DNA of 64,000 nucleotides from contig CM069442.1 of the NCBI GenBank assembly GCA_035610835.1, forward strand, positions 56,709,950 to 56,773,949. Reading direction: 5' to 3'. The DNA comes from Ophiura sarsii (lineage: Eukaryota > Echinodermata > Ophiuroidea > Amphilepidida > Ophiuridae). The notes beneath the pieces are model-generated. The model was not told the DNA's origin. It did not search any database and saw only the letters and a program-made list of their open reading frames with translations. Made by a program: the position numbers and the translations under genes. Below, piece after piece: positions 4,539-62,659 of the stretch; positions within the stretch are counted from its first letter, which is position 1; every line of letters begins with the position of its first letter.

Positions 4539-4574
<36 letters not shown>
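4539..4574 (+). repeat. Poly(G) run of 36
   Basis: An uninterrupted G homopolymer abuts the left terminus of the foldback element that follows, whose own end is GGGGTATCAAAAAG. The run may have grown from the G-rich terminus. Length may be unreliable in any assembly. Confidence 0.9.
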
Positions 4575-4575
<1 letters not shown>

Positions 4576-5165
4576 ATCAAAAAGTTTTCGAAATCACCCA
4601 GAAGTAAAGGAGCCAGGAACTTCATTTTGATATGTGATTCTTCAGACATCTTTACAAAGTCACTGTGCAAAAGCACACACTTCTCCCACTATTTATTACC
4701 TGCCTACAGACCGCCATTGTAGAGATCCTCAGATTGACCGCCATTGATTGATCCTCAGATTGCCTCAGATTGCGTTATTCCAAAACAGCAATAAATAGTT
4801 TAAAGAGTTGACAAAAAGGGGTCTAAGGTCATTACAAACAAGCTTGGTGACAATAATCTTATGGGTAACGTGGGGTGTACACAGATTGACCTCTAGCTAA
4901 TGACCCCTATATGACTTTTGACCCCTTGCTGTCAAAACTATTTATTGCGGTTTTTGAAATAAAGCAATCTGAGGCAATCTGAGGATCAATCAATGGCGGT
5001 CAATCTGGATCTCTACAATGGCAGTCTGTGGACAGGTAATAAATAGTGGGAGATATGTGTAACTTTGCACAGTGACTTTGTAAAGATGTATGAAGGATCA
5101 CATATCAAAATTAAGTTTCTGGCTCCTTCACTTCTGGGTGATTTCAAAAACTTTTTGATACCCCC
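4570..5165. mobile_element. ~590-bp foldback TIR element
   Basis: The left half (from GGGGTATCAAAAAG near 4570 to about 4830) and right half (about 4898 to 5165) are reverse complements over roughly 260 bp, with scattered mismatches and small indels. The two ends read GGGGTATCAAAAAG and CTTTTTGATACCCC. The short open frames inside are mirror translations of the same arm and are not genes. This is a non-autonomous long-TIR element. Superfamily and target duplication are not clear. Confidence 0.8.
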
Positions 5166-8381: not shown

Positions 8382-9343
8382 CAAGTAAATTCATCATATG
8401 GGTAAATTGATATGAGTAAATTATTTAGAGAGGGACCGGGTTCGGAGACAGTGGATTTTTAAGGTCTTTGTTAATGTTATTCATGCCAGTTTGTCAAAGT
8501 CTATATATTATTTATTCATTTCGCTTACTCAGCTGGTATCATTTGCTCGATCCTCGCGTGTGTTTGATTGAGTTTCACTTTTTTCTACATTCTGATAGAA
8601 TCATGCTTATAGGCCACTATAAATTGTTAATATTTACTACATGTATTTCGAAATTTCGGCCGCTAGAGACTCTCAACAAAGGCTTTGGATACATAAGTGC
8701 TAGTTCATCTATTGCCCACGTAAACACATTCCATTGTGGTCTAGTGGGTAATCCGATCGTCGCGATTTAATTAAACACAATGCACTTGCGCAAATTTGAG
8801 CACCAATAACCATGACGTCATCGTCGACACCGGGACTTTCGATCGCCGCGAATTTAAAAAAAATGCATGTTAAGAGAGATGGCAGTTTTATTCGTTTTTG
8901 TCATAAGTATGATGTTTTCTTCTATATAATTACGAAATTTGGGCTCGATAATTTTTTTTGTAACATATAATGCACAATGTTGAGCTTGCTGGAGACCTCC
9001 TTTAATATAATTCAATTCACGGCAGTTTGTCCGAGTCTATATATTACTTATTAAATTATTTTTCTTAACGCCACACATTATATAAATGATAGTCAGTGAA
9101 ACCCTTTCAATGAGCATCCAGGATCTGAACCTGGGACCTCTGGATCGCTAGACCAGGGCTCTACCAACTGAGCTATTGAGCTAATGAACTGAAGGCCTAT
9201 AGACAATGTATAATCGCCATTATTCCCCAACCTGGATGGTCAGTGAACATCTTTTACTGACTATCATCTATATAATGTGCGGAGTTAAGAAGAAATAATA
9301 TACTCATATCAATTTACCCACATGATAAATTTACTTGCTTGCG
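8382..9343. mobile_element. Nested inverted-repeat element
   Basis: The outer arms 8382-8430 and 9288-9343 are reverse complements (shared word GGGTAAATTGATATGAGTA). An inner pair, about 9059-9096 and 9256-9294, forms a second 38-bp inverted repeat sharing TGATAGTCAGT and ACATTATATA. A direct repeat around TCTATATATTA occurs at about 8481-8520 and 9020-9060. The picture fits one TIR element inserted into or grown within another. No transposase is encoded. Confidence 0.6.
9111..9183 (-). repeat. tRNA-like sequence, probable tRNA pseudogene or SINE head
   Basis: On the minus strand an A box TAGCTCAGTTGG, a plausible D arm (GCTC/GAGC), an anticodon-loop-like segment with AGC after T, and a perfect T-arm stem (CCAGG/CCTGG) with B box GGTTCAGATCC appear in tRNA order. 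The acceptor strands do not pair (AGCTCAA against ATGCTCA), so it is unlikely to be a working tRNA. It sits between the inner arms of an inverted repeat, suggesting a tRNA-derived element captured in a TIR element. Confidence 0.55.
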
Positions 9344-9599: not shown

Positions 9600-10080
9600 G
9601 ATTAAACAAAAGTTGGTTGGATTTTCTTTTCTACGATTCATGTAACGAAAAAGGTCCAACGTAAATCGATTGTTAGGGTCTATAATTATACAAAACCAAA
9701 GTTGAACCACTTAACATTTGAATTCGAGACGCCCTGTAACGTCGGGCGATGCGGTGCAACTATTATGGACACTTCATATGCATGGAGTATGTATACGTAG
9801 GATGGTATCCTGAGTGGAATGTAACGTGTTTAAACATCAAAGATTGAACAAAAGTTGGTTGGATTTATTTTTATTGTTACGATTCATGTAACGAAAAAGG
9901 TCCAACATAAATAGATTGTTTGGGTCTATAAACAAAAACAAAAGTTGAACCACTTTTATTTTAATTCGAGACGCCCTGTAACGTCGGGGCGATACGGTGC
10001 AACAATTATGGACACGTAATATGCATGTATTTACATTATGTATACGTAGGATGGCAGCTTGAGTGGAATGTAACGTTTTA
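9600..10080 (+). repeat. Tandem duplication, ~240-bp unit
   Basis: Unit 1 (about 9600-9832) and unit 2 (about 9843-10080) share long identical blocks such as GATTCATGTAACGAAAAAGG, GAGACGCCCTGTAACGTCGG and GTATACGTAGGATGG. Both units end in GAGTGGAATGTAACGT. They diverge by small indels. No coding content. Confidence 0.85.
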
Positions 10081-11367: not shown

Positions 11368-12475
11368 GATTATCACGAGCTGGTCCGAAATGTTGTTAAC
11401 CTTACCAACATAATCCTCAGGATATTCCAAGTACAGCTGCAAATGTCAAGTGCTTCCTTATCACACATGCTGCTTGATGAATACCCAAGTAATACACAGA
11501 CTCTCAGAGGTAACACCTACGTAATTTGATTTACTTTAATGTTGCCAACATTTTCCTTAATGATTATACGAACCCCTTACGTACTGTGGGATAATGCACG
11601 TTGTTTTTTCACTACGAGTTAAACTAAACTGCTCACAAAAAGTATCGTAACACTTAGAAATGATCCAATATATAACAGCTCGAAAGGGTATGCATTAATC
11701 GAAGCAAATAACCAAGTGCATAATTTTGTTCTGCGTATTTTGACACCTCGATCGATGAGATACGATGTTGCGGAGCGGAGTTATTGTCATTTCAATGGTC
11801 GTGGGTCCAGTTTCAAAAGTGACAATCACCCTATAGAAAGAGGTTTGCATTACTGTTTAGAATGATCAGATTCGTGATTTTCAATAGGGATGAGTGTCAC
11901 CTTGGAAACTGCACCCACGATCATTGAAATGACAATAACTCCGCTCCGCGACATCGTATCTCATCGATCGAGGTGTCAAAATACGCAGAACAAAATTATG
12001 CACTTGGTTATTTGCTTCGATTAATGCATACCCTTTCGAGCCGTTATATATTGGATCATTTCTAAGTGTTACGATACTTTTTGTGAGCAGTTTATACTTG
12101 TTAGAACAGTGGGCATGGTTGGTTAGCGCGTTTGAATTTTTATCTAGTTGGAATGTTTTGACTCGTGTTGGTGACCTCTTTTGAAAACATTGGTTTTAAA
12201 CTTGATATCATGTAACTGTATAAAACTGTTTAATACCTACAAGTTTGTAGCTTCAAGCATACATGTATCTTCCGGGTTTTTTTTGGGAGAAATCTGGGAA
12301 ATAAATGGATGAATTGTCCTCCTAAACAATTACCTGGCCGACATTGAATAACTTGCCATTTAACAAATTGACCATATTTCCTGAAGAAGAGCAGTGTTGC
12401 ACACATTTTGTATTTCCTCTGAACATGTTGAGGATGGGAATAATCATTATTAACACAAGCTTTCTAAATATTGAT
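11368..12475 (+). repeat. Unit B of the repeat array, split by a MITE
   Basis: Starts TATCACGAGCTGGTCCG and matches unit A along its length, apart from a 466-bp insertion at 11627-12092 and deletions after it. Without the insert the unit is about 640 bp. A third unit begins at about 12473 (GATTATCACGAGC) but diverges within ~20 bp. Confidence 0.8.
11627..12092. mobile_element. TA-flanked foldback MITE (Tc1/mariner-like target)
   Basis: A 466-bp element with long inverted arms (about 11627-11823 and 11898-12092) starting AACTGCTCACAAAAAGTATC, flanked by TA at 11625-11626 and 12093-12094. The paralogous repeat unit A at about 10880-10895 provides the empty site: its sequence continues across the insertion point with a single TA. 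TA duplication is the signature of the IS630-Tc1-mariner group. No transposase is present, so it must have been mobilised in trans. Confidence 0.85.
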
Positions 12476-23292: not shown

Positions 23293-23294
23293 TA

Positions 23295-24461
23295 CACAGA
23301 AAAAAATTACTGAGTCAAATGCCTCATTTTGGTAAGTCTTTCATTTGTCCGTGTAGTGAGACACTTTGAAGTTAAACTGAGTCATTTGACTCATCCATAA
23401 TGAGTCAATTGACTCACAAATGCAATTAATGAGTCTTCTGACTCACCAAAAATGAGTCAATTGACTCACTAGTGACTCAACAGACTCGGTAATGGGTCAC
23501 CTGACTCAATACTAATGAGTCAATTGAGCCTCCTGACTCACTTGTAACATGTCAATTGACTCAATAATGAATCAAATTGGGTCATTTGACACATTTAAAT
23601 GAGTCCCTTGATTCACAGATAATATTAACTGAGTCGAATGACTCATTTTGATGAGTCTTTTGTTTGTCCGTGTACTGAGACACTTGGACGTTTTACTGAG
23701 TCAATTGACTCAGGTTGGATGAGTCAACTGACTCAGACTGGAATTTTCAGTTGAGCCTCAGAATAGCCTTGTTTTGTGACAATTAAAGACTATCACAAAC
23801 ATGGGCGGTGATCTCCGAAAACTGTTAGTTTCTGTAGACACTGTATGTTGCCCATTATTAAGCAGGCACTAAGTCCAACAAATAATGATGTTAAATACAT
23901 CCATAAGCTTACTGAGGTGTAACGACGAAGGTCCAACACTGTAAGCTTACTGAAGGTAAAAACACCGCCAAATGCAAAAAGTTACTGTTCTATCAGCTCC
24001 AGAAATTCCACATATTACTTATGAGTCTATGCAGTGTTTAATAACAAAGAAGTCCAAAAGAAATGACACAACTTGTGTCTTCAATCACTAACATCATGAA
24101 CATACGCTATATAGTCACCAGTCCATGTGCAAAACAAAATGGCCGAGCTAATAAATAAAAACAGCCTCGCTTTCATTTCGTATTTGACTCATTATTTTTG
24201 TGAATGAGTCAAAAGTCGATCTTGACTCATCTTACCCTGACAAGTGAGTCAATCTGGCAATACTCTACTGAGTCACCTGAAATTTGACTCATTAACAGAT
24301 TATGCGTGAGTCAATTATGATACACTTAGTGCAATAAGTGAGTCAATGTGTATGTGACTCACTTAAAATGAGTCAATTGACTCAGCAAATGAGTCAACTT
24401 AATGATGACTCATTTCAAAATTGTCGAAGTGAGTCAAATGACTCGGTATTTTTTTTCTGTG
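23295..24461. mobile_element. TIR element built of AP-1-type palindromes
   Basis: The ends CACAGAAAAAAATTACTGAG (left) and the inverse of CACAGAAAAAAAATACCGAG (right) are inverted repeats flanked by TA (23293-23294, 24462-24463). By hand count about 18 exact TGAGTCA/TGACTCA heptamers lie in the left ~470 bp and about 14 in the right ~285 bp. Many are paired as TGAGTCAATTGACTCA. The ~400-bp centre has none and is unrelated. About 0.14 would be expected by chance in the element. Dense subterminal repeats with CAC-type ends resemble CMC (CACTA/Mirage) transposons, where such repeats bind transposase. The heptamer is also the AP-1/bZIP consensus. No transposase is encoded. Confidence 0.8.
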
Positions 24462-24463
24462 TA

Positions 24464-28997: not shown

Positions 28998-29180
28998 GAG
29001 AATAATGACTGCGTAACAACTGTTTTCGTGAATTTGTTTTAAAATCAGAGGTTTTTGTTCTGGTCTGAGGAATTGTCCCGAGGGGCGCAGCCCCCGAGGG
29101 ACAATTCCGAATGACCAGAACAAAACCCGAGGATTTCAAAACAAATTCACGAAAACAGTTGTTAAGCAGTCATTATTCTC
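28998..29180. mobile_element. 183-bp hairpin element
   Basis: The left arm starts GAGAATAATGACTGC and includes GAAAACAGTTGTTA in inverse at the right. The right arm ends GCAGTCATTATTCTC. About 85 bp pair with few mismatches around the core CCCGAGGGGCGCAGCCCCCG. It lies between the two ~500-bp duplicates. Confidence 0.85.
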
Positions 29181-32424: not shown

Positions 32425-32885
32425 TGTTGTGACGCTAAATTTATATTGATATTATTAATAGTATTATTAATTCTAGATATTTCCATATCTAGAATTCAGG
32501 CCATGATTGACTTGAAATGGCAACACCGTACTTCCGTATTCTGAATCCCATTCAGTCTACGCGCCAATATCTCTGACCAATTCAAGTCTTCGTGCCACGC
32601 TGACAACACCTCATAAGTTTAGGCCATATAGTTTTCTATTCACACAACAGGACTGGTGAGCTCTGAATTACAGAAGCTCACGATTGATGCGTGTCATGTC
32701 ATTTCTTTAGGATAGTCTAGATGCTGGGTGCTGTGTTCGTTTATAATATGAGTAAGTGAACTATTTATGATGAATTAATAAAATGTATATATAAATAACT
32801 TGGAAGCTATATCCGTTATATTCATTCTGTGTGTTTTGATCCCCTCTCCGCCATGCGAGTATTTTCCCTAAAACCACGTCACAAT
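32425..32885 (+). repeat. 5' LTR
   Basis: 461 bp beginning TGTTGTGACG and ending CGTCACAAT, so the ends are short inverted repeats. It contains a palindrome ATTCTAGATATTTCCATATC near 32465-32500 and an AATAAA-like word (TTAATAAAATG) near 32777 that could serve polyadenylation. It should hold the element's promoter. Confidence 0.95.
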
Positions 32886-33969
32886 ATCTGGTGGAGAATT
32901 CCGTCTTTTTTGATATTCCTATATCAATGTTTATATTATTCCGGTCAATTTACCAGCCCCCTTCATTTTGAATAATTAGGACTGTAGCTACAAAGTTGTA
33001 TATGTATTTTGTTGTTCATCGCATCCAGTGTCGACGACTGTAACTCAGCGTGGTGAGAGGGTTTGAATTCAGGTAGCATTTTGTTGGTATGCACTGCTGA
33101 AATTTAATTATATGTCTATTGAAATTTGTTTTATAGACCCAGAAAGGTCTATTAAAATTGTGTTTAAAATAGTATACACGAAATACATGTAGTATGGCCT
33201 ATCAATAATTAGGTCTTATTTACGCTGGCAATAATGGGCGCATTCTACATGTCCAACGTGGCAAGTCGATAAAGTCTTTTATATACATGTAATTGTTCCG
33301 ATATACAAGTCTCTGATAATCTGGTTCAAAAGTGCATGACCACGGTCTGATATCCATTGATAAAATTTTTTAATCCGAGATTGAAATTCTCGAGCGCGGT
33401 AAAATTCTATTGTGAAGATTTTATAAGCTCTTCTACTGGGCAGGTGCGTTTCAGACAGACAATTTCTTCGGATGAAATAAATCTTGTTTATTTTTGGATG
33501 AGACTGATGACAGTCAGAATTTTATATAAATTTTGAATGGACTGATTTCTAAATCAAGATACATAATATTGATACACTGCACTGCAATTGAATAAATATT
33601 TTATATATTCAGCTGTAACTTGGGACTTTATTCATTTAATTTGATGTCAACTTTAAATTGTTGACTTGGATTTCATTGAGCTTTTAATTTTTTCTCATTG
33701 GTGAATTTAAACTTCATCAATTAAGTTCATTGTTAGTCTATTAATTAAATTTAATCATCAATCATAATCAATACATTTTAATTGATAATCGTAATCAAGT
33801 TTAATAATTAATAAACTTGGTTCATGTTCAGATTTTTCAAATTTTGATTGAATTTGAACTTGAATTTTGATCTTGAACTTGAGATTGACTAAAAATTTTT
33901 TTTGTTGATTAAATTCCGAATTCTCTTTGGAATTAGCTTGTGATTTTGACATAGATTGTTAAAAAGGCA
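32886..33969 (+). other. 5' untranslated leader of the LTR element
   Basis: Roughly 1.08 kb between the LTR and gag, AT-rich and low-complexity towards the end (TTGAA/TTGAT runs near 33830-33900). It contains the candidate primer-binding site at 32889. Minus-strand open frames here are artefacts of the biased composition. Confidence 0.7.
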
Positions 33970-34911
33970 ATGAGCGATAGCGATAGTGATAGTGATAGTA
34001 AGTCTGTTATATCACTTAATAGTATAGAGGAGGTTGAACTTGACGTAGCAAATATGGCTAAATATGATATGCATAATTGCGATATTAAATATTCTGGTAA
34101 TCCAGATGATGACGTAGATAACTTCATTAGTAGATTTGAGACGTATGCTGAGCTGAGAGATTATACCGCGCCAAAATCTATACTTGCCTTACAAACAAAA
34201 GTTTATGGAAATGCTCGCGTCTATTTGGATTCAATTCCTGATACAGATAAGGATACCATAACCAAGATTAAAGATTTACTTAAAAGTAATTTCGAAGGTT
34301 CATCTTGGAAATGGAGCGTCGAATCTAAGCTGTTGTCGCGTAAGCAATTGACATCAGAAACACTTGACGACTATGCTTGTGAAATAATAAGATGGTGCAA
34401 GCAGGTTGGTAAATCTGAAGCAGAAAAGTTATCTATTTTTGTTCGCGGTCTTTTGCCTTATGTCAGAGCGTTTGTGTTTTCAAAAGAACCTGAATCATTT
34501 AAACAAGCACTAGACGCCGCGAGATTGGGAATTTCAGTACAGCAAACGGCAAATGACTCGCTATTCGCACCCGCACAATCACAAAATACTGAGCCCCAGG
34601 TAAATAGCATTCATTCTGTTCTGGACACACTGACGGGAGTCGTGTCTAATATAGCCACCAGAATGGAGAAATTAGAACACGACAAACATGTCTCTTTTTC
34701 TTCCCCGTTAGATCGTACTTACAATTCAGATAGAATAAGTAGTTTCTCTCAACCTAGGCATCAACCTAATCAAACTTGGAATCAACCAAGGCAGTCACAG
34801 GCCCCCTATAGATCGTACAGAAAATTAGTATGCAATAGGTGTGGTCGTGTGGGACATGGGTGGAGAAAATGCTATGCCAAATTTGACGTAAATAGGAATC
34901 CTTTAAACTAA
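33970..34911 (+). CDS. gag: Gag polyprotein of the Ty3-type element
   Basis: A 313-codon capsid/nucleocapsid protein of the retrotransposon. The N-terminus is an Asp-Ser repeat (from about residue 2 to 11). Residues ~35-190 have the helical, Trp-containing character of the retrotransposon Gag capsid family (conserved words such as FISRFETYAELR and SWKWSVESKL). Near the C-terminus, at about residues 289-302, a single zinc knuckle CNRCGRVGHGWRKC fits C-X2-C-X4-H-X4-C and should bind RNA. The frame stops at TAA 34909-34911, immediately after the slippery heptamer TTTAAAC. The start is the first in-frame ATG after the leader. The particle it builds would package the element RNA in the cytoplasm. 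No disruption is seen. Confidence 0.93.
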   Translation: MSDSDSDSDSKSVISLNSIEEVELDVANMAKYDMHNCDIKYSGNPDDDVDNFISRFETYAELRDYTAPKSILALQTKVYGNARVYLDSIPDTDKDTITKIKDLLKSNFEGSSWKWSVESKLLSRKQLTSETLDDYACEIIRWCKQVGKSEAEKLSIFVRGLLPYVRAFVFSKEPESFKQALDAARLGISVQQTANDSLFAPAQSQNTEPQVNSIHSVLDTLTGVVSNIATRMEKLEHDKHVSFSSPLDRTYNSDRISSFSQPRHQPNQTWNQPRQSQAPYRSYRKLVCNRCGRVGHGWRKCYAKFDVNRNPLN

Positions 34912-34966
34912 TAAACCCATCTGCTAGACAGAAAAAGAAACATGTTCCACGACATGTAGATGGGTT
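34902..34966 (+). promoter_or_regulatory. -1 ribosomal frameshift signal at gag-pol junction
   Basis: The heptamer TTTAAAC (34902-34908) is in the T-TTA-AAC register of gag and is followed at once by the gag stop TAA. After a 5-nt spacer, AACCCATCT (34914-34922) pairs perfectly with AGATGGGTT (34958-34966). On the 3' side an inner stem ACATGT/ACATGT (34940-34945 with 34952-34957) closes a 6-nt loop and could stack coaxially, leaving a 17-nt A-rich bulge. The pol frame is open from 34896, exactly the -1 frame. Heptamer, spacer and stem all match the known requirements for programmed -1 frameshifting. Efficiency is unknown. Confidence 0.85.
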
Positions 34967-37900
34967 AAGGTTTCAAAGATTTGAACATGTAAGAGGTGTA
35001 TACCGAAATGGCAATGCAAACCGTGTACCTCTTGATTTGAACAGACAGACATTTGGACAAAAATCGAATTCCAGTTTTTCACAAGCGCATATTGAGATTA
35101 ATTTGTCTACGTTGAATACCATAGCAGCATTTGTTAATGGTAACCCTGTTCAATGTTTGATTGATACAGGTGCTTCTGTCAACATTATTGATCACGATTG
35201 GTTTCATGCTAATCTTTCCAATTTGCGTTTTTCTATAGAAAAATCACGTGTAGCTGAAGCACGCGCAGCAAATGGTAGTAGTTTGGAAATTACTGGATTC
35301 ATAGTTTTGTCCATATCTGTCAATGGCACACAATTTCCTGTACCTATGAATATTGCTCGTAACTTAAGTACACGTATCATACTTGGGTCTCAGTTTTTAA
35401 ACAGGCACTGCGCAAGAATAGATTGTGAATCTCGTACACTAAGACTTGCTAAGGAGAGTAAAATACTTGTCATTGAGAAACAGGAAATTCCTGCTCACAC
35501 TCAGTCTGTTGTGTGCGCAAGACTGTCAAATAAATTGCCATTCAATACAATTGGTCTCTCTCATGGAGGCAGGCGTGTCTCTGCATTAGGTGTATTGATC
35601 GCGAATACTGCTTCTAGTGTACAGAATAACTGTATTCATTTATTAGTTATGAATACTACTGATGAACCAATAACTTTGTACCCTCGTACTAAATTGGGCA
35701 TTTTTTCTCTCGTTGACCCGCATAGGATTCACTCCTTCCCCGATCTTGAGAAAAATAATGTTAACAATGTTAATATAAGGCAAGCATCCGCGGTAGCTAG
35801 CGATGTAAACAGTAAACAAGATTCAGTAAAGGAAGTCCTTTCAAAAGTGAATTTAAATACTGATCACATGTCAGGTACTGAAGCATCTGAAATCAATGGT
35901 TTACTCACTGAATATATTGATATATTTCAAGTAAAAGGGGGTCCTACTGGTAATTACTCCCGTGTTAAACATGCTATTAACACTGGTGATCACCCTCCTA
36001 TTAGATCTAGACCGTATAGGCAAGCTCCTCACATTCAAGCCGAAGTACGTAGACAAGTCCACGAAATGTTAGAACAAGACATTATAAAGGAGTCGGCAAG
36101 TCCTTGGTCCTTTCCAGTATGCATGACACCTAAAGCTGGTGACCCAAATACTTATAGATTTGCAATTGATTTTAGAGCCTTGAATAAGATTTGTGCACGC
36201 GATAACTTTCCGTTACCTAACATAAACGATGCTTTAGATAGTTTAGGTGCAGCCAAACCAAATTTCATTACAACTCTTGATCTTGCGGCTGGATATTGGC
36301 AAATAGGCTTGGAAGAAAGTTCCAAATCTAAAACTGCATTCATCACTCAAGATGGTCTATATGAATTCCAAAGAATGCCATTTGGTTTACATAACGCCCC
36401 AGCCACTTTCCAACGAGCTATGCAAGAAGTTTTGAGAGGTTTGAATTGGAAATTCGTTCTCTGTTACTTAGATGACATAATTATATTCAGTAGTTCTTTC
36501 TCCGAACACATGGACCATTTAAGGCAAGTTTTCGATAGGTTGCGCGCAGCTGGTCTAAAATTACAACCTAAGAAATGTACTTTTGGTCAAACTGAGGTCA
36601 AATATTTAGGTCACGTAGTGAACAAAGATGGTGTAGCAACAGATCCAGCAAAATTGAAAATTGTCCAAGATTATCCAACTCCTGCCAAAGTAACCGAAGT
36701 CAAATCTTTTCTTGGATTTGTGGGATATTATCGAAAGTTCATAAAGGACTTTTGCAAAATTGCTGAACCACTAACCAATTTAACTAGAAAAGATGTATCT
36801 TTTGTTTGGGATCAAAGTTGTCAAGAAGCATTCAAAACGCTCAAACGAAAATTGTTAGAGCCACCAATTCTAGCATATCCAAATTTCGATGGCACAGAAT
36901 TCATATTGCAAACCGATGCTAGTCGTACTGGTTTAGGTTTTATTTTGGCCCAAAAGCAGGATGGCAAAGAACGTGTGATATCCTATGGTGGAAGAGCATT
37001 ACATGATGCGGAAAGAAATTACACGGTTACAGAAATTGAAGCTTTGGCAGTTGTCGAGGGAATCAAGAAATATGCTCCATATTTGCAACATAGTATCAAA
37101 TTCACTGTTGTAACTGATCATTGCGCTTTGAAATGGCTCTTTGGTATAAACAAAAATACCGGAAGTCGATTAGCGCGATGGGCACTTAAACTGCAGTCAT
37201 ATAAGTTTGATGTAATTCACATTCGTGGACGCCATAATGGTAACGCTGATGCATTAAGTAGAATAGATTATGACAGAATGGATATTTGTACTGATTGCAA
37301 TCATTCTCATTCCAAAGTCACTGATGCTGTAGAAGTTAATAAGGTAGCCTGGGTAAAGTCGGGATTAGACGAGATGGTGAGCGACATCATACAAAATCCT
37401 AGTAATGATGTGAACTCTCGTCCTACAGTAAACGTGGTTAGAAATCTTCGATTTCAAAAAGGGAAACGTGTTGAGAATGACAAAGATTCAGTCAAGCCAA
37501 ATATTCCAAACTTTCCAAATGAGCTCAACTTAGACAAATTCAAACAAGTTTTGTTGACGGATATATTTGCGGGATCAATGTTGCAATATCTGGAAAACGA
37601 TGAATTGCCAGATAATGCTGTTAAGGCTAGGAATGTAGTTTTACAGGCTGATCAGTACTATGCACACGAAGGGTTGTTGTATCACATTTGGCATACTCCT
37701 GCTAAAGGGCACATGCCTGAAAGAAATGTCCATCGTTTGTATATACCCGTGCAATTAATTGATACAGTTCTAAATAACTGTCATGATCACGTGTTAGCCG
37801 CACATTTTGGATTTCAGCGAACCTACAATAGAATCCGTCAACGTTACTTTTGGAAATGCATGTATCGTGACGTAGACAACTGGGTCCGTTCATGTATTTC

Positions 37901-39179
37901 TTGCTCTCAACGAAAAACTCATAGACATAAAGTACTAGCCCCAATGGTAACTATGAAAGTGCCAGGCGCTTTCGAACGAGTAAGTGTTGACATTTTAGGT
38001 CCTTTACCTATTACCACTTCAGGTAATCGCTATGTACTCTGTTTTTCAGATCATTGTACTAGATGGCCAATTTTGGTACCATTGAAAGTTACTGATGCGT
38101 CAACCATTGCTCGCGCATTCTTTGATTATGTAATTTGTGAACATGGTTGTCCTCAAACCTTGTTGAGCGACAGAGGTCAAAATTTCCTCTCCAAGATTGT
38201 ATTGGAAGTTTGTCGTATTATGCGCACTCACAAACTGAATACAAGTTCATATCATCCACAATGCAATGCAATTCAGGAACGTTTTAATGCAGTAATTCTG
38301 GATACCATTTCACATTATGTCAATGAATACCAAAGCGATTGGGATAAGTACATAACAGCTATACAATTTGCCTATAGAACAACTCCCGCTGAAAATTCAG
38401 TTGGATTTAGTCCCTTCTTCTTGTTGTATGGTAGAGAGGCAAGACTTCCGATAGATGTTACACTCCTAGCACAATGCAAATATCCAGATAAGACACTTCG
38501 TGAGCACATTCACAATCTGGTATCACAACTCGAAGTATTTAGGGACATTTCAAAACGTCATGCTGAACGTAATCAAGCCAAAATGAAAGAGCGTTTTGAT
38601 GATCGTGCGCAAGATGTTCCATATCAAGTTGGTGATTCAGTTTGGATTTATATACCTGCATTGCAACAAGGATTGTCACGTAAACTCTCAAAGTTCTGGG
38701 CGGGACCCTTTCTACTAGTCGAACAGACTGGTCCTGTAAATTTCAAGGTGCGAAATCTTGAAAACAACAAATTGGTAACATCTACTGTACATGTTAACCG
38801 TATGAAATTTGCATATAATAGATTTGTCCGTCCAAGCAATGATACTCCCCCTGTGGATCCTGAAAATAGAGATCCAATTCCAGGATTAGTTCTAGACGAT
38901 TGTCCTGATGATATATTTGAACAACTTTTGGCTACCCACGAGTCTGACAAGAATCAGATTCCAATTATTCCAGGTTTGCCTCCTATTCAAGATGAAACTC
39001 CAGAATATGTGATAGAGCGTATTCTCAGGGGACGTTTTAAAAATAAACGTCTTGAGTATTTGATAAAATGGCGGGGCTTCCCAAATTCAAGAAATACATG
39101 GGAACCAGAGACTAACCTAAATGCGGCCGCTTTAGAATCTCTGAAAGCTAACCCAGTCAAAATTACTGGCAAGATGTAA
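34902..39179 (+). CDS. pol: Pol polyprotein (PR-RT-RH-IN-chromodomain) of the Ty3-type element
   Basis: Read by -1 frameshift from gag; the frame is open from 34896. No ATG opens it near the junction. Domains: aspartic protease with DTGAS at about 35163; reverse transcriptase with the YLDD catalytic motif at 36465-36476; RNase H beginning around QTDASRTGLG (~36909) with the DHCALKWL block (~37117); integrase with an H-X4-H...C-X2-C zinc site (~37780-37910), catalytic D in VDILGPLP (~37987), D in LLSDRGQNF and E in the NAIQERF block (~38160-38285); a GPF-type module (~38700); and a C-terminal chromodomain (~38995-39115, with EYVIERIL, EYLIKWRGF and NTWEPE). The chromodomain is expected to steer integration towards methylated-histone chromatin. 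No stop or frameshift interrupts it. Confidence 0.95.
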   Translation, partial: FKLINPSARQKKKHVPRHVDGLRFQRFEHVRGVYRNGNANRVPLDLNRQTFGQKSNSSFSQAHIEINLSTLNTIAAFVNGNPVQCLIDTGASVNIIDHDWFHANLSNLRFSIEKSRVAEARAANGSSLEITGFIVLSISVNGTQFPVPMNIARNLSTRIILGSQFLNRHCARIDCESRTLRLAKESKILVIEKQEIPAHTQSVVCARLSNKLPFNTIGLSHGGRRVSALGVLIANTASSVQNNCIHLLVMNTTDEPITLYPRTKLGIFSLVDPHRIHSFPDLEKNNVNNVNIRQASAVASDVNSKQDSVKEVLSKVNLNTDHMSGTEASEINGLLTEYIDIFQVKGGPTGNYSRVKHAINTGDHPPIRSRPYRQAPHIQAEVRRQVHEMLEQDIIKESASPWSFPVCMTPKAGDPNTYRFAIDFRALNKICARDNFPLPNINDALDSLGAAKPNFITTLDLAAGYWQIGLEESSKSKTAFITQDGLYEFQRMPFGLHNAPATFQRAMQEVLRGLNWKFVLCYLDDIIIFSSSFSEHMDHLRQVFDRLRAAGLKLQPKKCTFGQTEVKYLGHVVNKDGVATDPAKLKIVQDYPTPAKVTEVKSFLGFVGYYRKFIKDFCKIAEPLTNLTRKDVSFVWDQSCQEAFKTLKRKLLEPPILAYPNFDGTEFILQTDASRTGLGFILAQKQDGKERVISYGGRALHDAERNYTVTEIEALAVVEGIKKYAPYLQHSIKFTVVTDHCALKWLFGINKNTGSRLARWALKLQSYKFDVIHIRGRHNGNADALSRIDYDRMDICTDCNHSHSKVTDAVEVNKVAWVKSGLDEMVSDIIQNPSNDVNSRPTVNVVRNLRFQKGKRVENDKDSVKPNIPNFPNELNLDKFKQVLLTDIFAGSMLQYLENDELPDNAVKARNVVLQADQYYAHEGLLYHIWHTPAKGHMPERNVHRLYIPVQLIDTVLNNCHDHVLAAHFGFQRTYNRIRQRYFWKCMYRDVDNWVRSCISCSQRKTHRHKVLAPMVTMKVPGAFERVSVDILGPLPITTSGNRYVLCFSDHCTRWPILVPLKVTDASTIARAFFDYVICEHGCPQTLLSDRGQNFLSKIVLEVCRIMRTHKLNTSSYHPQCNAIQERFNAVILDTISHYVNEYQSDWDKYITAIQFAYRTTPAENSVGFSPFFLLYGREARLPIDVTLLAQCKYPDKTLREHIHNLVSQLEVFRDISKRHAERNQAKMKERFDDRAQDVPYQVGDSVWIYIPALQQGLSRKLSKFWAGPFLLVEQTGPVNFKVRNLENNKLVTSTVHVNRMKFAYNRFVRPSNDTPPVDPENRDPIPGLVLDDCPDDIFEQLLATHESDKNQIPIIPGLPPIQDETPEYVIERILRGRFKNKRLEYLIKWRGFPNSRNTWEPETNLNAAALESLKANPVKITGKM

Positions 39180-40326
39180 AGCCAGCGGGCAAGAATCATT
39201 GCAGGAACAGAGTCTGAAACAGCAAATAAATAAGTAGTATTGAGAAAAGTGTACAAGTATAGAGAACACAGAGGAAGTATATGAATAAAATTTATAGTCC
39301 GTAGGCTGAGATATGTCATGATATGAGTATTACAATTCTTATGACACAAAATGTGTTATTTTGATAAAATTGTTGAATGAGAGCAATTTGTAATTTGGGC
39401 AACATTGCCTGAAAGTGTGTGTTCACTTTCGTTAATTTGTATATAGAAATGATTGTTGCAAAGAATTGCACACAATGATATTCTTCATGTAGAAAGTTTG
39501 AATTTATATAGTTGAGCAAAAATGCGGAAATGCAGTATGATCAAATAAGTGTTATATTTATTTGTATCTTTTCGGAAGAGGCATATGTTGTGAGGTTTTC
39601 TGGCAACATTAGTCTCACATGAATAGACGCAAACAAAAGAAAGTTTAATGTAAATTACTAAATATTTCAGTAGTGCTACCTTTGTCTTGTTTTGTCTGTC
39701 TTGTATTGTCTTGTTGTGTACACATAATATATAGTCACCATTGATGACTATTTAATTTTAAAGGGTCACAAAAACGTGATTTCTTTGAAATAAGAAAAAT
39801 ATGTTTCCGTATGAAACATCGAAATTGGAAGGAAATTTTCCAATTCTTATGCGCTTCAACTTTTGATGAAACCTTTAGACCGCACACGTTAATCAGAGGA
39901 TTATGTATGAGAGTGTGTGTGTTTGTGTTAGGCCATTTAAGGGATATCCCGTATGCGTGTTTGTTCAACAAAAAATCCCTCTTTACCGTGTGAGCGTAAT
40001 CACTTGGAATTTTTCACGTGAATTCCGGGTTAATACGGTCGCAGGTTTCCACAGGTTTGGCGTCGCAGAAGATTAATAATAAATTTATATTTAAGGCCAC
40101 TCGTTTAAAAATAAAATAACGTTCGCAGAGAGTTAAAATTATACAACCTGATATTAGATGCCGTCAATTTGGCAGACGGAAACATGGATAAAGCACATGT
40201 TAAATTTGTGACGAAATAAATAATTCGTTTCTATATATGATAAAGATATCAGTTTCTTTTATAAATATTTCACCCAGCATTCTTTAAGTTAAATTGTCAG
40301 GTGTCAATTTTGTTAGGAAGGGCGTA
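39180..40326 (+). other. 3' non-coding region of the LTR element
   Basis: About 1.15 kb between the pol stop and the right LTR with no env-like or other convincing frame. It ends in the candidate polypurine tract. Short minus-strand open frames lack any recognisable domain. Confidence 0.65.
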
Positions 40327-40787
40327 TGTTGTGACGCTAAATTTATATTGATATTATTAATAGTATTATTAATTCTAGATATTTCCATATCTAGAATTCA
40401 GGCCATGATTGACTTGAAATGGCAACACCGTACTTCCGTATTCTGAATCCCATTCAGTCTACGCGCCAATATCTCTGACCAATTCAAGTCTTCGTGCCAC
40501 GCTGACAACACCTCATAAGTTTAGGCCATATAGTTTTCTATTCACACAACAGGACTGGTGAGCTCTGAATTACAGAAGCTCACGATTGATGCGTGTCATG
40601 TCATTTCTTTAGGATAGTCTAGATGCTGGGTGCTGTGTTCGTTTATAATATGAGTAAGTGAACTATTTATGATGAATTAATAAAATGTATATATAAATAA
40701 CTTGGAAGCTATATCCGTTATATTCATTCTGTGTGTTTTGATCCCCTCTCCGCCATGCGAGTATTTTCCCTAAAACCACGTCACAAT
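40327..40787 (+). repeat. 3' LTR
   Basis: 461 bp, no difference from the 5' LTR found by eye, followed by the target-site duplicate ATTTG at 40788-40792. Confidence 0.95.
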
Positions 40788-40792
40788 ATTTG

Positions 40793-46893: not shown

Positions 46894-47075
46894 TAAGTAT
46901 GCTTTAAGTCAACTAAATGAATTTGTAAATGTTGTTTGTTTTGCTACACTTGCTCGAGCCTATCCGTGAATATGCTTCTTAGAACGTGAGCACTTATTGA
47001 AGTTTTGCCAATAAGCAATTTTACACATGCAATGTAACGTTTTCATACTATTTTCTGTCTTTCTCTTTCATACAG

Positions 47076-49252
47076 CGAGATTAAAAGAAAACGAAAGAAT
47101 GAAACGACCAAGGGGGAATCCCCCGAAGAAAGAAAGAAAGAATTCCAAGATTAAGAAAACACCAAGCCAAGCTACCATTCGTGTAGACGCCGGGCCATAT
47201 AGAGAAGGACGACCAATGTCTGTCAATATGGAACTTATGAAACAAGAGCCTCCATTCCCACCATCCTATAGCGAATCCAAAGATCTGGGAACCAAATTGA
47301 ACGACTCTCTATCTGACAAGGTCTCCAATAAAGACAGGCTGTCGGATAGAGTACCTTCTGATAAATTTTCATCTGACAAAGCTTCATCGGAAAAGATATC
47401 CTCTGAGAAAATATCATCAGAGGTTTCGTTTGAGAAAGAACCTGAGAAATCGCCTTCCGAAAAGGATATGACATCCGTAAAAGAGGTTGAAGGTGTTATA
47501 CAGGATGATCCTAAAAATGAGAAAGCGAACGATTCCAACCCTGTTCCTACAACACCTGATATGTATAGAGCACCTCGGGCGGTTGATGATGAAGATTATG
47601 ATATAGGCGAATATATTTCCGACGATGATGACGACGACGATGATGACGAAGAAGAATTCCTAATGGCCAATGATGATATTCCGCCAGATTATGCGCCACC
47701 CCCACCTCCACCAGGAGAAGCTCCTTTTGAACAATCTGATGTAGAATTACTAGATATTAGTAGAGATCAAGACGCCAATGACACCACTGATAGAGAGGAA
47801 CCTGAAACTGCACAGGTTACCGCAACAAGCGAATCTGATCGCGATACCGACGCCGACGTAACCACTCCTCTTGTCAGACACGCTAGCTTGAAAGAAACTA
47901 GCTCCTCTAGACGCCCTAGAAAACCAATATTACGCACGGGTTCATCGTTAGAATTTGGAGAATATCACCGACAGAGACTCCAAAAACGACAAAAGTCATG
48001 TATAGATTTTAGACAATTTGATGAACAGAGTATGGCCGCAAGTGAACTGAAAGAGGTTGTTATCAACGAAGAACCTGATGTGTATCGCATTACTATTCCA
48101 GAAGAAGATACAACGACAATGCGAAGTGAAATGGACTATAGTTTTTCAGAGAGTGCAAACGAAAGTGGAGGTCGACGACGGATATACAGAAAAGGAAAAG
48201 GACCAAAACCTAGAAAAAGAAGGGTTACGAAAGAGGAGAGGAGAGCTGCTGCAGATGCTATCAAAGAGAGAAAACAGAATGCAAAAGAGAATGCTAAAAT
48301 GGCGGCAAAAGAAAGGGCGTATATGCTAAGGCAAAGAAAAATAGACGAAAGACATCGTAAATCCACATCGAAAAGAAAAGGAGCAACATTGTGTGTACGG
48401 AGACCCATAATGGCTCCACCCACTCTACGGGCATTACATAATGGTAGACAATTACAACATAGGGAGTCTGCAACTGCTGTACGCTTATCCACGTACAATA
48501 AAAATTTAGGAAACAGCAGGGAAGATATAACCTCAAGTGTAAAAGGTTTAAGAACTGAAAAACTGAACTTAGTGTGCGAATACGACAATGGTAAAGTGCG
48601 CGTCAGTCCCACATTACGTAGAGGACTTAGTACCAGAAGCAGATATAGTACTAAAAGCAAATATAGTGAACGTAGTAAGTTTAGTGAATACAGTAATAGA
48701 AGCGGATATAGTGTTAGTGATCGGAGTAAAAGCGGGTACAGTGTTAGCGATAGGAGCAAAACAAGCAGCATTTCCTCCAGCAGAAGTGGCAGCAGACGAG
48801 GACGACGAAAAAAGCGAAAGGGCAAAGGCTCCATATCGGATTCAAGTGCGCCCTCTTGTAGCGAAGGTGGTCGCGATTCCGATATGGAGAGTTCGGATGA
48901 GGAGGAGCAACAACGTGAACTGACAACGGCTGACATTCCAATTGGTCCCGTGCTAGCTTTCTTCTTTGGCTACATAGGCGCGGGTGCTATCCTCTTTAAA
49001 ATATTGGAGGGAGACGAATGGTCCCTTTTCGAGTCTTTCTACTTTTGTTTTATAACCTTGACAACTATAGGATTCGGTGATTTCGTTCCAGATAATTCCA
49101 TGGAAAGTTTGATCGCGTGCTGTCTGTACACAATGATCGGTATGGCGGTAACCTCCATGTGTATCGCACTGATGATGAAAAAGTTTGTGGCTACAATACA
49201 AAACATAGGGAAGAAAGTAGGGATCATTGAAGACACTGATGGCCCATCGTAA
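47076..49252 (+). CDS. K2P potassium channel, last exon: giant loop, TM3, pore 2, TM4
   Basis: Acceptor CTTTCATACAG ends at 47075. The exon joins in phase 1 and runs 724 further codons to the stop. About 615 residues form a hydrophilic, low-complexity cytoplasmic loop: basic KRPRGNPPKKERKNSKIKK; Ser/Asp/Lys repeats (~47300-47450); an acidic run of nine Asp plus Glu (~47621-47655); a proline run (~47695); a Lys/Arg/Ala helix-like region (~48180-48360); and Arg-Ser-Tyr repeats (~48620-48800). The last ~110 residues hold TM3 (GPVLAFFFGYIGAGAILFKI), the pore-2 helix and filter TLTTIGFGD (~49056-49082), TM4 and a short tail. A long TM2-TM3 loop with a short C-tail recalls TRESK (KCNK18), whose loop is much shorter. 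Orthology is not established. TM1 and the start of pore 1 lie in exons not found here. Confidence 0.88.
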
Positions 49253-62400: not shown

Positions 62401-62473
62401 TCATTCGTAAGTTTTGCAATATACTAAATTGTTTATTATTTGGCAACAAGAAACACACACGTTCAAAATCTCC

Positions 62474-62659
62474 CCTAACTCTAACCCTAACCCTAACCCT
62501 TACCCTAATCCTAACCCTTAACCTTACCCATAACCTTACCCTAACCATAACCCTATCCCTAAAAATAAATCCTATCTCTAACCCTAACCCTAAACCTTAC
62601 CCAAACCCTAACCCTAACCCTAACCCTAACCCTAACCCTAACCCTACCCCTAAACCTAC
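62474..62659 (-). repeat. Interstitial telomeric repeat (CCCTAA)n
   Basis: About 185 bp of CCCTAA hexamers. The right half (about 62610-62645) is nearly perfect; the left and middle are degenerate (CCTTAC, CCATAA, CCTATC). On the minus strand it reads TTAGGG, the usual animal telomere unit outside most arthropods and nematodes. A 103-codon frame here is an artefact. Confidence 0.95.

Follow-up and report, generated by a model that had tools for sequence, protein, structure and literature searches.

A transposon family of Ophiura sarsii whose subterminal motif coincides with the AP-1 consensus

The window analyzed here, a 64,000-nucleotide stretch of the Ophiura sarsii genome (contig CM069442.1, forward strand), holds several features besides the element that is our subject. 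An LTR retroelement at 32425-40792 has gag and pol frames (33955-34911 and 34896-39179) with reverse transcriptase, RNase H, integrase, and chromodomain, and since its direct repeats (32425-32890 and 40327-40792) are 99.8% identical, it is probably a recent insertion. A long frame at 47015-49252 carries an Ion_trans_2 domain of the potassium-channel type; it has five matches, and the two with names are starfish proteins. At 9118-9175 lies a tRNA-like match of 38.1 bits, above the Rfam cut-off and without a call from ARAGORN, which is perhaps a SINE. Self-comparison also finds long self-complementary stretches (11625-12094, 4570-5165, 1884-2070, and 28998-29180; 82-91%), possibly foldback elements, and an interstitial tandem array of CCCTAA-like units occupies 62473-62658. 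The element itself, on the + strand at 23295-24461, is a 1167-bp copy of a non-autonomous transposon with terminal inverted repeats (TIRs), for which the family consensus is 1168 bp. Self-comparison finds no second copy of it in the window, and the only match is one of 21 bases at 9887 (E 0.06).

The termini of the element, CACAGAAAAAAA...TTTTTTTTCTGTG, belong to 35-bp inverted repeats of 83% identity (23295-23329 on the + strand, 24427-24461 on the - strand), and a TA target site duplication flanks each side (23293-23294 and 24462-24463), much as a preliminary description of this DNA had proposed. That description had also put the number of TGASTCA heptamers (TGAGTCA or TGACTCA) in these 1.17 kb at about 32, and the exact count is 32, against a chance expectation per 1,167 bases of 0.11 from the density in the rest of the window or 0.16 from shuffles. 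Outside the element, the window has 6 heptamers in 62,833 bases, and none of 100 whole-window shuffles reaches the 38 of the real sequence (mean 8.55 per 64 kb, maximum 14). The heptamers do form two subterminal clusters around a motif-free core, as had been claimed: 18 lie at 23311-23735 and 14 at 24185-24436, the right cluster running on to 24445 with a terminal TGACTCG, and the core at 23736-24184 contains no exact heptamer. By eye, the six-frame translation of the window copy has no long open frame, in the core or elsewhere. Counted from the left end, the first heptamer begins at base 17 (23311); counted from the right end, the near-heptamer CGAGTCA stands at base 17.

Two features absent from the preliminary description can be added: a duplication, in which 122 bp of the left end (23295-23416) recur on the same strand at 23614-23735 with 81% identity, and a second repeated motif, TTTGTCCGTGTA, found on the + strand at 23344-23355 and 23663-23674. 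The left cluster has a 23-bp period, and the spacings in the right cluster are irregular, from 9 to 32. Exact copies of the 16-mer palindrome TGAGTCAATTGACTCA number four (23401-23416, with further starts at 23453, 23697, and 24369), and exact pairs of the form TGAGTCANNTGACTCA number six, so that the "many" palindromes reported earlier were a generous reading of this copy; genome-wide, TGAGTCAATTGACTCA is found at 556 places in 1.57 Gb and its reversed control at 0. Inside the right cluster, at 24321-24345, TACACTTAGTGCAATAAGTGAGTCA mirrors the layout of an end (TA, CAC, heptamer at base 17) and is perhaps a fossil nested end.

Genome-wide, the end pattern CACAGAAAAAAAWTACYGAGTCA with at most 2 mismatches detects 370 ends, and its reversed control detects 1. 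Among the 100 ends listed, all of them exact, there are 30 inward pairs, 27 of which are 1057-1173 bp apart; the remaining three measure 206, 725, and 8297 bp, and 40 ends are unpaired in that partial list. Each of 22 copies longer than 1 kb carries 26-35 exact heptamers, and the window copy retains 32 of the 35 in the family consensus. Terminal inverted repeats with a target site duplication, present in 31 of 31 complete copies, are those of a non-autonomous TIR transposon. The uniform length of the many copies without coding capacity (27 of 30 pairs at 1057-1173 bp; the window copy frame-free by eye) resembles that of MITEs, but we say "MITE-like" only, because 1167 bp exceeds the 800-bp limit of PMC6004678. 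Two longer loci were considered as autonomous copies and rejected: L147, with 7.2 kb between its ends, is an interrupted copy with reverse-transcriptase-like frames, as read from translations, and L174 (8.3 kb, the 8297-bp pair) is a family copy with a 7.1-kb insert and a longest frame of 143 aa. At three further loci, L132, L138, and L139, heptamer clusters and one end (CAATCACAGAAAATATT) lie inside a larger common repeat of several kb. Searches elsewhere returned 0 matches for the TIR pattern in a viral contig collection and 0 for the double-palindrome pattern in a collection of genome contigs. Four viral-contig stretches with a triple-heptamer pattern were set aside, their clustered heptamers being spaced by multiples of three and read as coding repeats, a reading that rests on the spacing, with the letters inspected for L003 only; TACACAGAAAAAAA is too short a pattern to be informative in viral contigs.

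The target site duplications bear most directly on the class of the family. All 31 complete copies have identical 2-bp flanks, and none of the 31 has a 3-bp match, a count in which the ends of L174 and of the 206-bp L186 were placed by hand. The duplicated dinucleotide is TA in 27 copies, TG in 2, AA in 1, and CG in 1. Because the duplication is 2 bp and not tied to TA, a CMC/CACTA-type mechanism is favored and strict TA insertion disfavored. Tc1/mariner elements are known to insert at TA only, which the 4 non-TA duplications do not fit. The termini are of the CAC...GTG form; the literal CACTA end is not found, the ends reading CACAG here and CACAC in a second family described below. The duplication falls in the 2-4 bp range given for CACTA/CMC elements (PMC4482050), and subterminal direct and inverted repeats are present, in units shorter than the 10-20 bp of PMC8978399. 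ISL2EU (PHIS) was rejected, since its published usual GG ends and AT duplication do not fit (PMC4482050). The combination of CAC/GTG ends and 2-bp duplications is known from CACTA-type MITEs of wasp and virus genomes (PMC6004678). From ends, duplications, and arrays, then, we infer that the family probably belongs to the CMC/CACTA class. The preliminary description had proposed a CMC-like element with transposase-binding subterminal repeats, and the non-autonomous TIR structure, the 2-bp duplications, and the CAC...GTG ends agree with it. Its suggestion that the genome be searched for paralogues and an autonomous partner yielded the 370 matching ends; the partner was not found at 7 transposase places.

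These 7 distinct places in the genome hold CACTA-type transposase genes, PF02992 at 5 and DUF1258 at 4, with two shared. Within about 1.5 kb on each side there is at most 1 heptamer per locus, and around four of the places no heptamer cluster is seen when the flanks are widened to about 6 kb either way, the locus L156 having three TGASTCA at 637-675. With no linked heptamer cluster at the places checked, the PF02992 and DUF1258 genes were rejected as the mobilizing partner. Other repeated palindromes do occur near such genes. In L156 a tandem-like array of 12 palindromes TGGAATTCCA occupies 1415-1866, near a Transposase_21 gene and some 4 kb away from the transposase frame in L149. Across L164-L161-L165 an 855-aa DUF1258-type transposase frame is surrounded by 17-18 occurrences of a TTGATCAAAA-type palindrome, which could be the subterminal motif of the DUF1258-type element there.

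At least three of this genome's element families carry the heptamer array. The second family is represented by an element of 1117 bp in L148, with ends CACACATAAACTTTG and a core that differs from that of the window family; its six two-ended copies, in five loci, span 1117-1770 bp, and each has 20 heptamers and TA flanks. The third is a 139-bp element (L131, 2029-2167) with 5 heptamers, its ends reading CACAGAAAGAAAAAAG. At the left end, the first TGAGTCA begins at base 17 in each of the three families, and on the right a heptamer stands at 17 in the second family and at 18 in the third, in the place of the CGAGTCA at 17 in the window family. A listing that admitted only heptamers starting at bases 15-21 after TACAC puts 29 of 33 rows at 17, but many of these rows duplicate one another, some belong to an internal CACTTAGTG stretch rather than to an end, and the two at 15 come from the 12-mer TACACGGACAAA, likewise not an end. 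The motif TTTGTCCGTGTA is also common to the three families, and in 20 loci chosen by palindrome (L129-L148) 23 of its 23 occurrences lie no more than 150 bases from at least three heptamers. Moreover, the window family shares the stretch AAAAGTCGATCTTGACTCA with the second family and a 16-mer beyond the heptamer, TCACTACACGGACAAA, with the third; hence the three families are not independent, and their arrays are likely of common descent. It is more likely that the heptamers persisted while ends and cores diverged than that they arose three times.

Conservation of the heptamers between copies above the background, which the preliminary description had named as a check, is borne out. In 37 copies, all re-oriented, with 23 bp at each end (the TIRs) and the 206-bp L186 excluded, 47 of 8211 heptamer cells are changed from the consensus against 460 of 30518 other cells, a rate ratio of 0.38; 27 of the 37 were selected by one or two exact ends, so that recently mobile copies are favored. 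When copies are binned by how far their other cells diverge, the ratio stands at 0.20 in 15 copies, 0.33 in 14, 0.40 in 5 (including the window copy), and 0.77 in the 3 most diverged. Within this last bin L147 (8/131 vs 38/673) and L177 (7/209 vs 26/791) have no deficit, whereas L133 (1/164 vs 26/731) retains a strong one. A set of 17 copies gives 12 changes in 4150 heptamer cells against 161 in 15578 elsewhere, where trinucleotide context predicts 53.8 heptamer changes; none of 5000 base-matched resamples is as low, and removal of CpG alters next to nothing. This set was chosen by hand, being the 22 copies minus L190, L177, L193, L145, and L192, with TIR columns included, and of those excluded L145, L192, and L193 are no more diverged than some that were kept. 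The rates in it are 0.019 just before the heptamer, 0.000-0.007 inside, and 0.007 and 0.010 after. Flanking positions -2, -4, -6, +10, and +12 are also low, and thus constraint may extend slightly beyond the 7 bases. A first set, the window copy and six copies picked by palindrome, shows a weaker deficit, with ratios of 0.33-0.57 and Fisher p of 0.009-0.08 according to the reference copy; private changes there number 17 in 245 heptamer columns against 108 in 924 others, and shared changes 0 against 11 (L137 was dropped from the ratio and the private-change counts). Taken together, these comparisons say that the heptamers are under constraint. The deficit weakens steadily from the least to the most diverged copies, the last a group of only three, and this pattern suggests that constraint acts while copies are mobile, so that transposition, not the host, would maintain the heptamers.

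What reads the site can be approached from its orientation. Read on the strand whose middle base is G, the site TGAGTCAA is directional: A follows TGAGTCA in 22 of the 32 sites of the window element, the mirror base being found in 3 of 32, and in 14 of 20 in the second family, with the mirror base in 1 of 20. Eight sites of the window element are strictly isolated, and A comes next in 6 of these and the mirror base in 1; the third family is without directional bias (0/5). AP-1 reads the heptamer symmetrically. Direction, end register, and the second motif TTTGTCCGTGTA therefore point to a reader other than AP-1. The reading we favor, with reasonable confidence and from features of the sequence, is that the family consists of non-autonomous cut-and-paste transposons which depend on a CMC/CACTA-type transposase acting in trans, and that the heptamers are subterminal sites for a transposition protein. 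Such a transposase would be supplied from elsewhere to move the copies. The TGAGTCAA heptamers, as single sites and inverted pairs with the first 17 bases from the end, would be bound by the transposase or a TNPA-like accessory protein, which would gather on both ends and so pair them before excision. The match to the AP-1 consensus would be a coincidence of recognition.

Other accounts can be set against this one. One of them keeps the role of the heptamers and changes the class: the family would belong to another superfamily with 2-bp duplications, either Tc1/mariner or an undescribed group. The TA target of 27 of 31 copies speaks for this, as does the outcome at the transposase places checked, where a linked CACTA transposase was not found. 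We nevertheless think it unlikely in view of the 4 non-TA duplications in 31 copies, the CAC...GTG ends, and subterminal arrays typical of CACTA (PMC6004678, PMC2613891, PMC8978399), and ISL2EU in particular is a poor candidate, its usual ends being GG and its duplications AT (PMC4482050). Far more improbable is that the arrays are a functionless mutational artefact of local tandem duplication. The 23-bp period and the 122-bp duplication of the left cluster are what such a process would leave, but the right cluster is irregular, the deficit of heptamer changes is family-wide, and families whose cores differ have the motif as well. Within the 122-bp duplication itself, heptamer columns differ at 2 of 42 against 21 of 80 elsewhere, a comparison somewhat favored by the choice of columns (an exact heptamer in either copy). 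On spacing, duplication comparison, and family-wide deficit, a satellite or tandem artefact was rejected as the full explanation.

A function for the host is the remaining account, in which host selection keeps the heptamers as AP-1 enhancers or AP-1 sinks. It would explain why the heptamer is the exact AP-1/TRE consensus and is conserved between copies, and it can also draw on the deficit among changes private to a single copy, which are mostly post-insertion if copies moved once (one of the two sets had L190 reversed). We hold it to be very unlikely. The deficit shrinks with divergence, from 0.20 to 0.77, although the oldest bin is those three copies and L133 keeps its deficit; in two of the three families the site has a direction, for which AP-1 has no need; the heptamers keep a constant register relative to the ends and occur together with a second motif that is not an AP-1 site; and, judged from densities, the family raises the background of heptamers by a few percent. 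An intermediate idea, a long shot that we would rate only a little above host selection, is that the transposition machinery and host AP-1 have the site in common by design: host AP-1, or a bZIP-like protein borne by the autonomous partner, would bind the arrays, so that stress or proliferation signals would trigger both transposition and nearby genes, and bursts would plant clusters of about 35 sites.

Against known systems, the window family most resembles CACTA/En-Spm elements such as soybean Tgmt* and maize En/Spm with their TNPA-type repeats, having the same CAC...GTG ends and many short motifs, direct and inverted, within a few hundred bases of each end and unequal between the sides (PMC2613891). 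Tgmt*, for instance, has 4 and 24 subterminal repeats (PMC2613891). In the cases studied, such arrays are bound by a protein that the element encodes (PMC2613891), and the motifs vary widely between families (PMC2613891, PMC8978399). The present family differs in its motif, which is 7-8 bp, near-palindromic, and equal to the AP-1 consensus, as well as in its CACAG ends, its duplication of 2 rather than 3 bp, and its lack of a coding part. With the CMC/CACTA-type MITEs CMC-NA_1 and CMC-NA_2 and with ENS1_Cis it shares CAC/GTG termini and 2-bp duplications, but unlike them it exceeds the 800-bp MITE limit, and the available sections of their description make no mention of heptamer arrays (PMC6004678). 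The human piggyBac system of MER85 and CSB-PGBD3 is likewise a transposon system tied to TGANTCA sites genome-wide (PMC3459987). There, however, it is AP-1 proteins that can recruit the transposase fusion to AP-1 sites, which the fusion does not bind on its own. CSB-PGBD3 failed to shift TRE oligonucleotides, and MER85 is a site distinct from these (PMC3459987), whereas in the window family the TRE-like motif lies within the transposon ends. Keyword searches for TGAGTCA or AP-1 sites together with MITEs or DNA transposons returned no publication, a result that extends no further than the openly accessible literature and the words used. The kind of element is already known, and the striking motif is what sets the family apart.

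For AP-1 itself the arithmetic is simple. The 370 ends, halved, give 185 elements, which at about 33 heptamers each make about 6,000, and crude arithmetic from the 6 other sites in the window puts the background of TGASTCA in the 1.57-Gb genome at the order of 150,000. A genome-wide AP-1 sink is therefore unlikely, and the earlier suggestion of one is weakened by these numbers and by the ratio of 0.77 in diverged copies. Locally the matter is otherwise, in that clusters of at least 30 sites are unusual and could act as accidental enhancers. A transposon's own conserved terminal motif that equals the consensus of a major host transcription factor makes a clear and testable case, and the coincidence recurs in three or more of this genome's element families. 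Irrespective of the use that the element makes of them, each fresh copy of the main family brings some 35 sites matching the AP-1 consensus within 1.2 kb, and the family offers a natural test of whether arrays of transposase sites become accidental enhancers.
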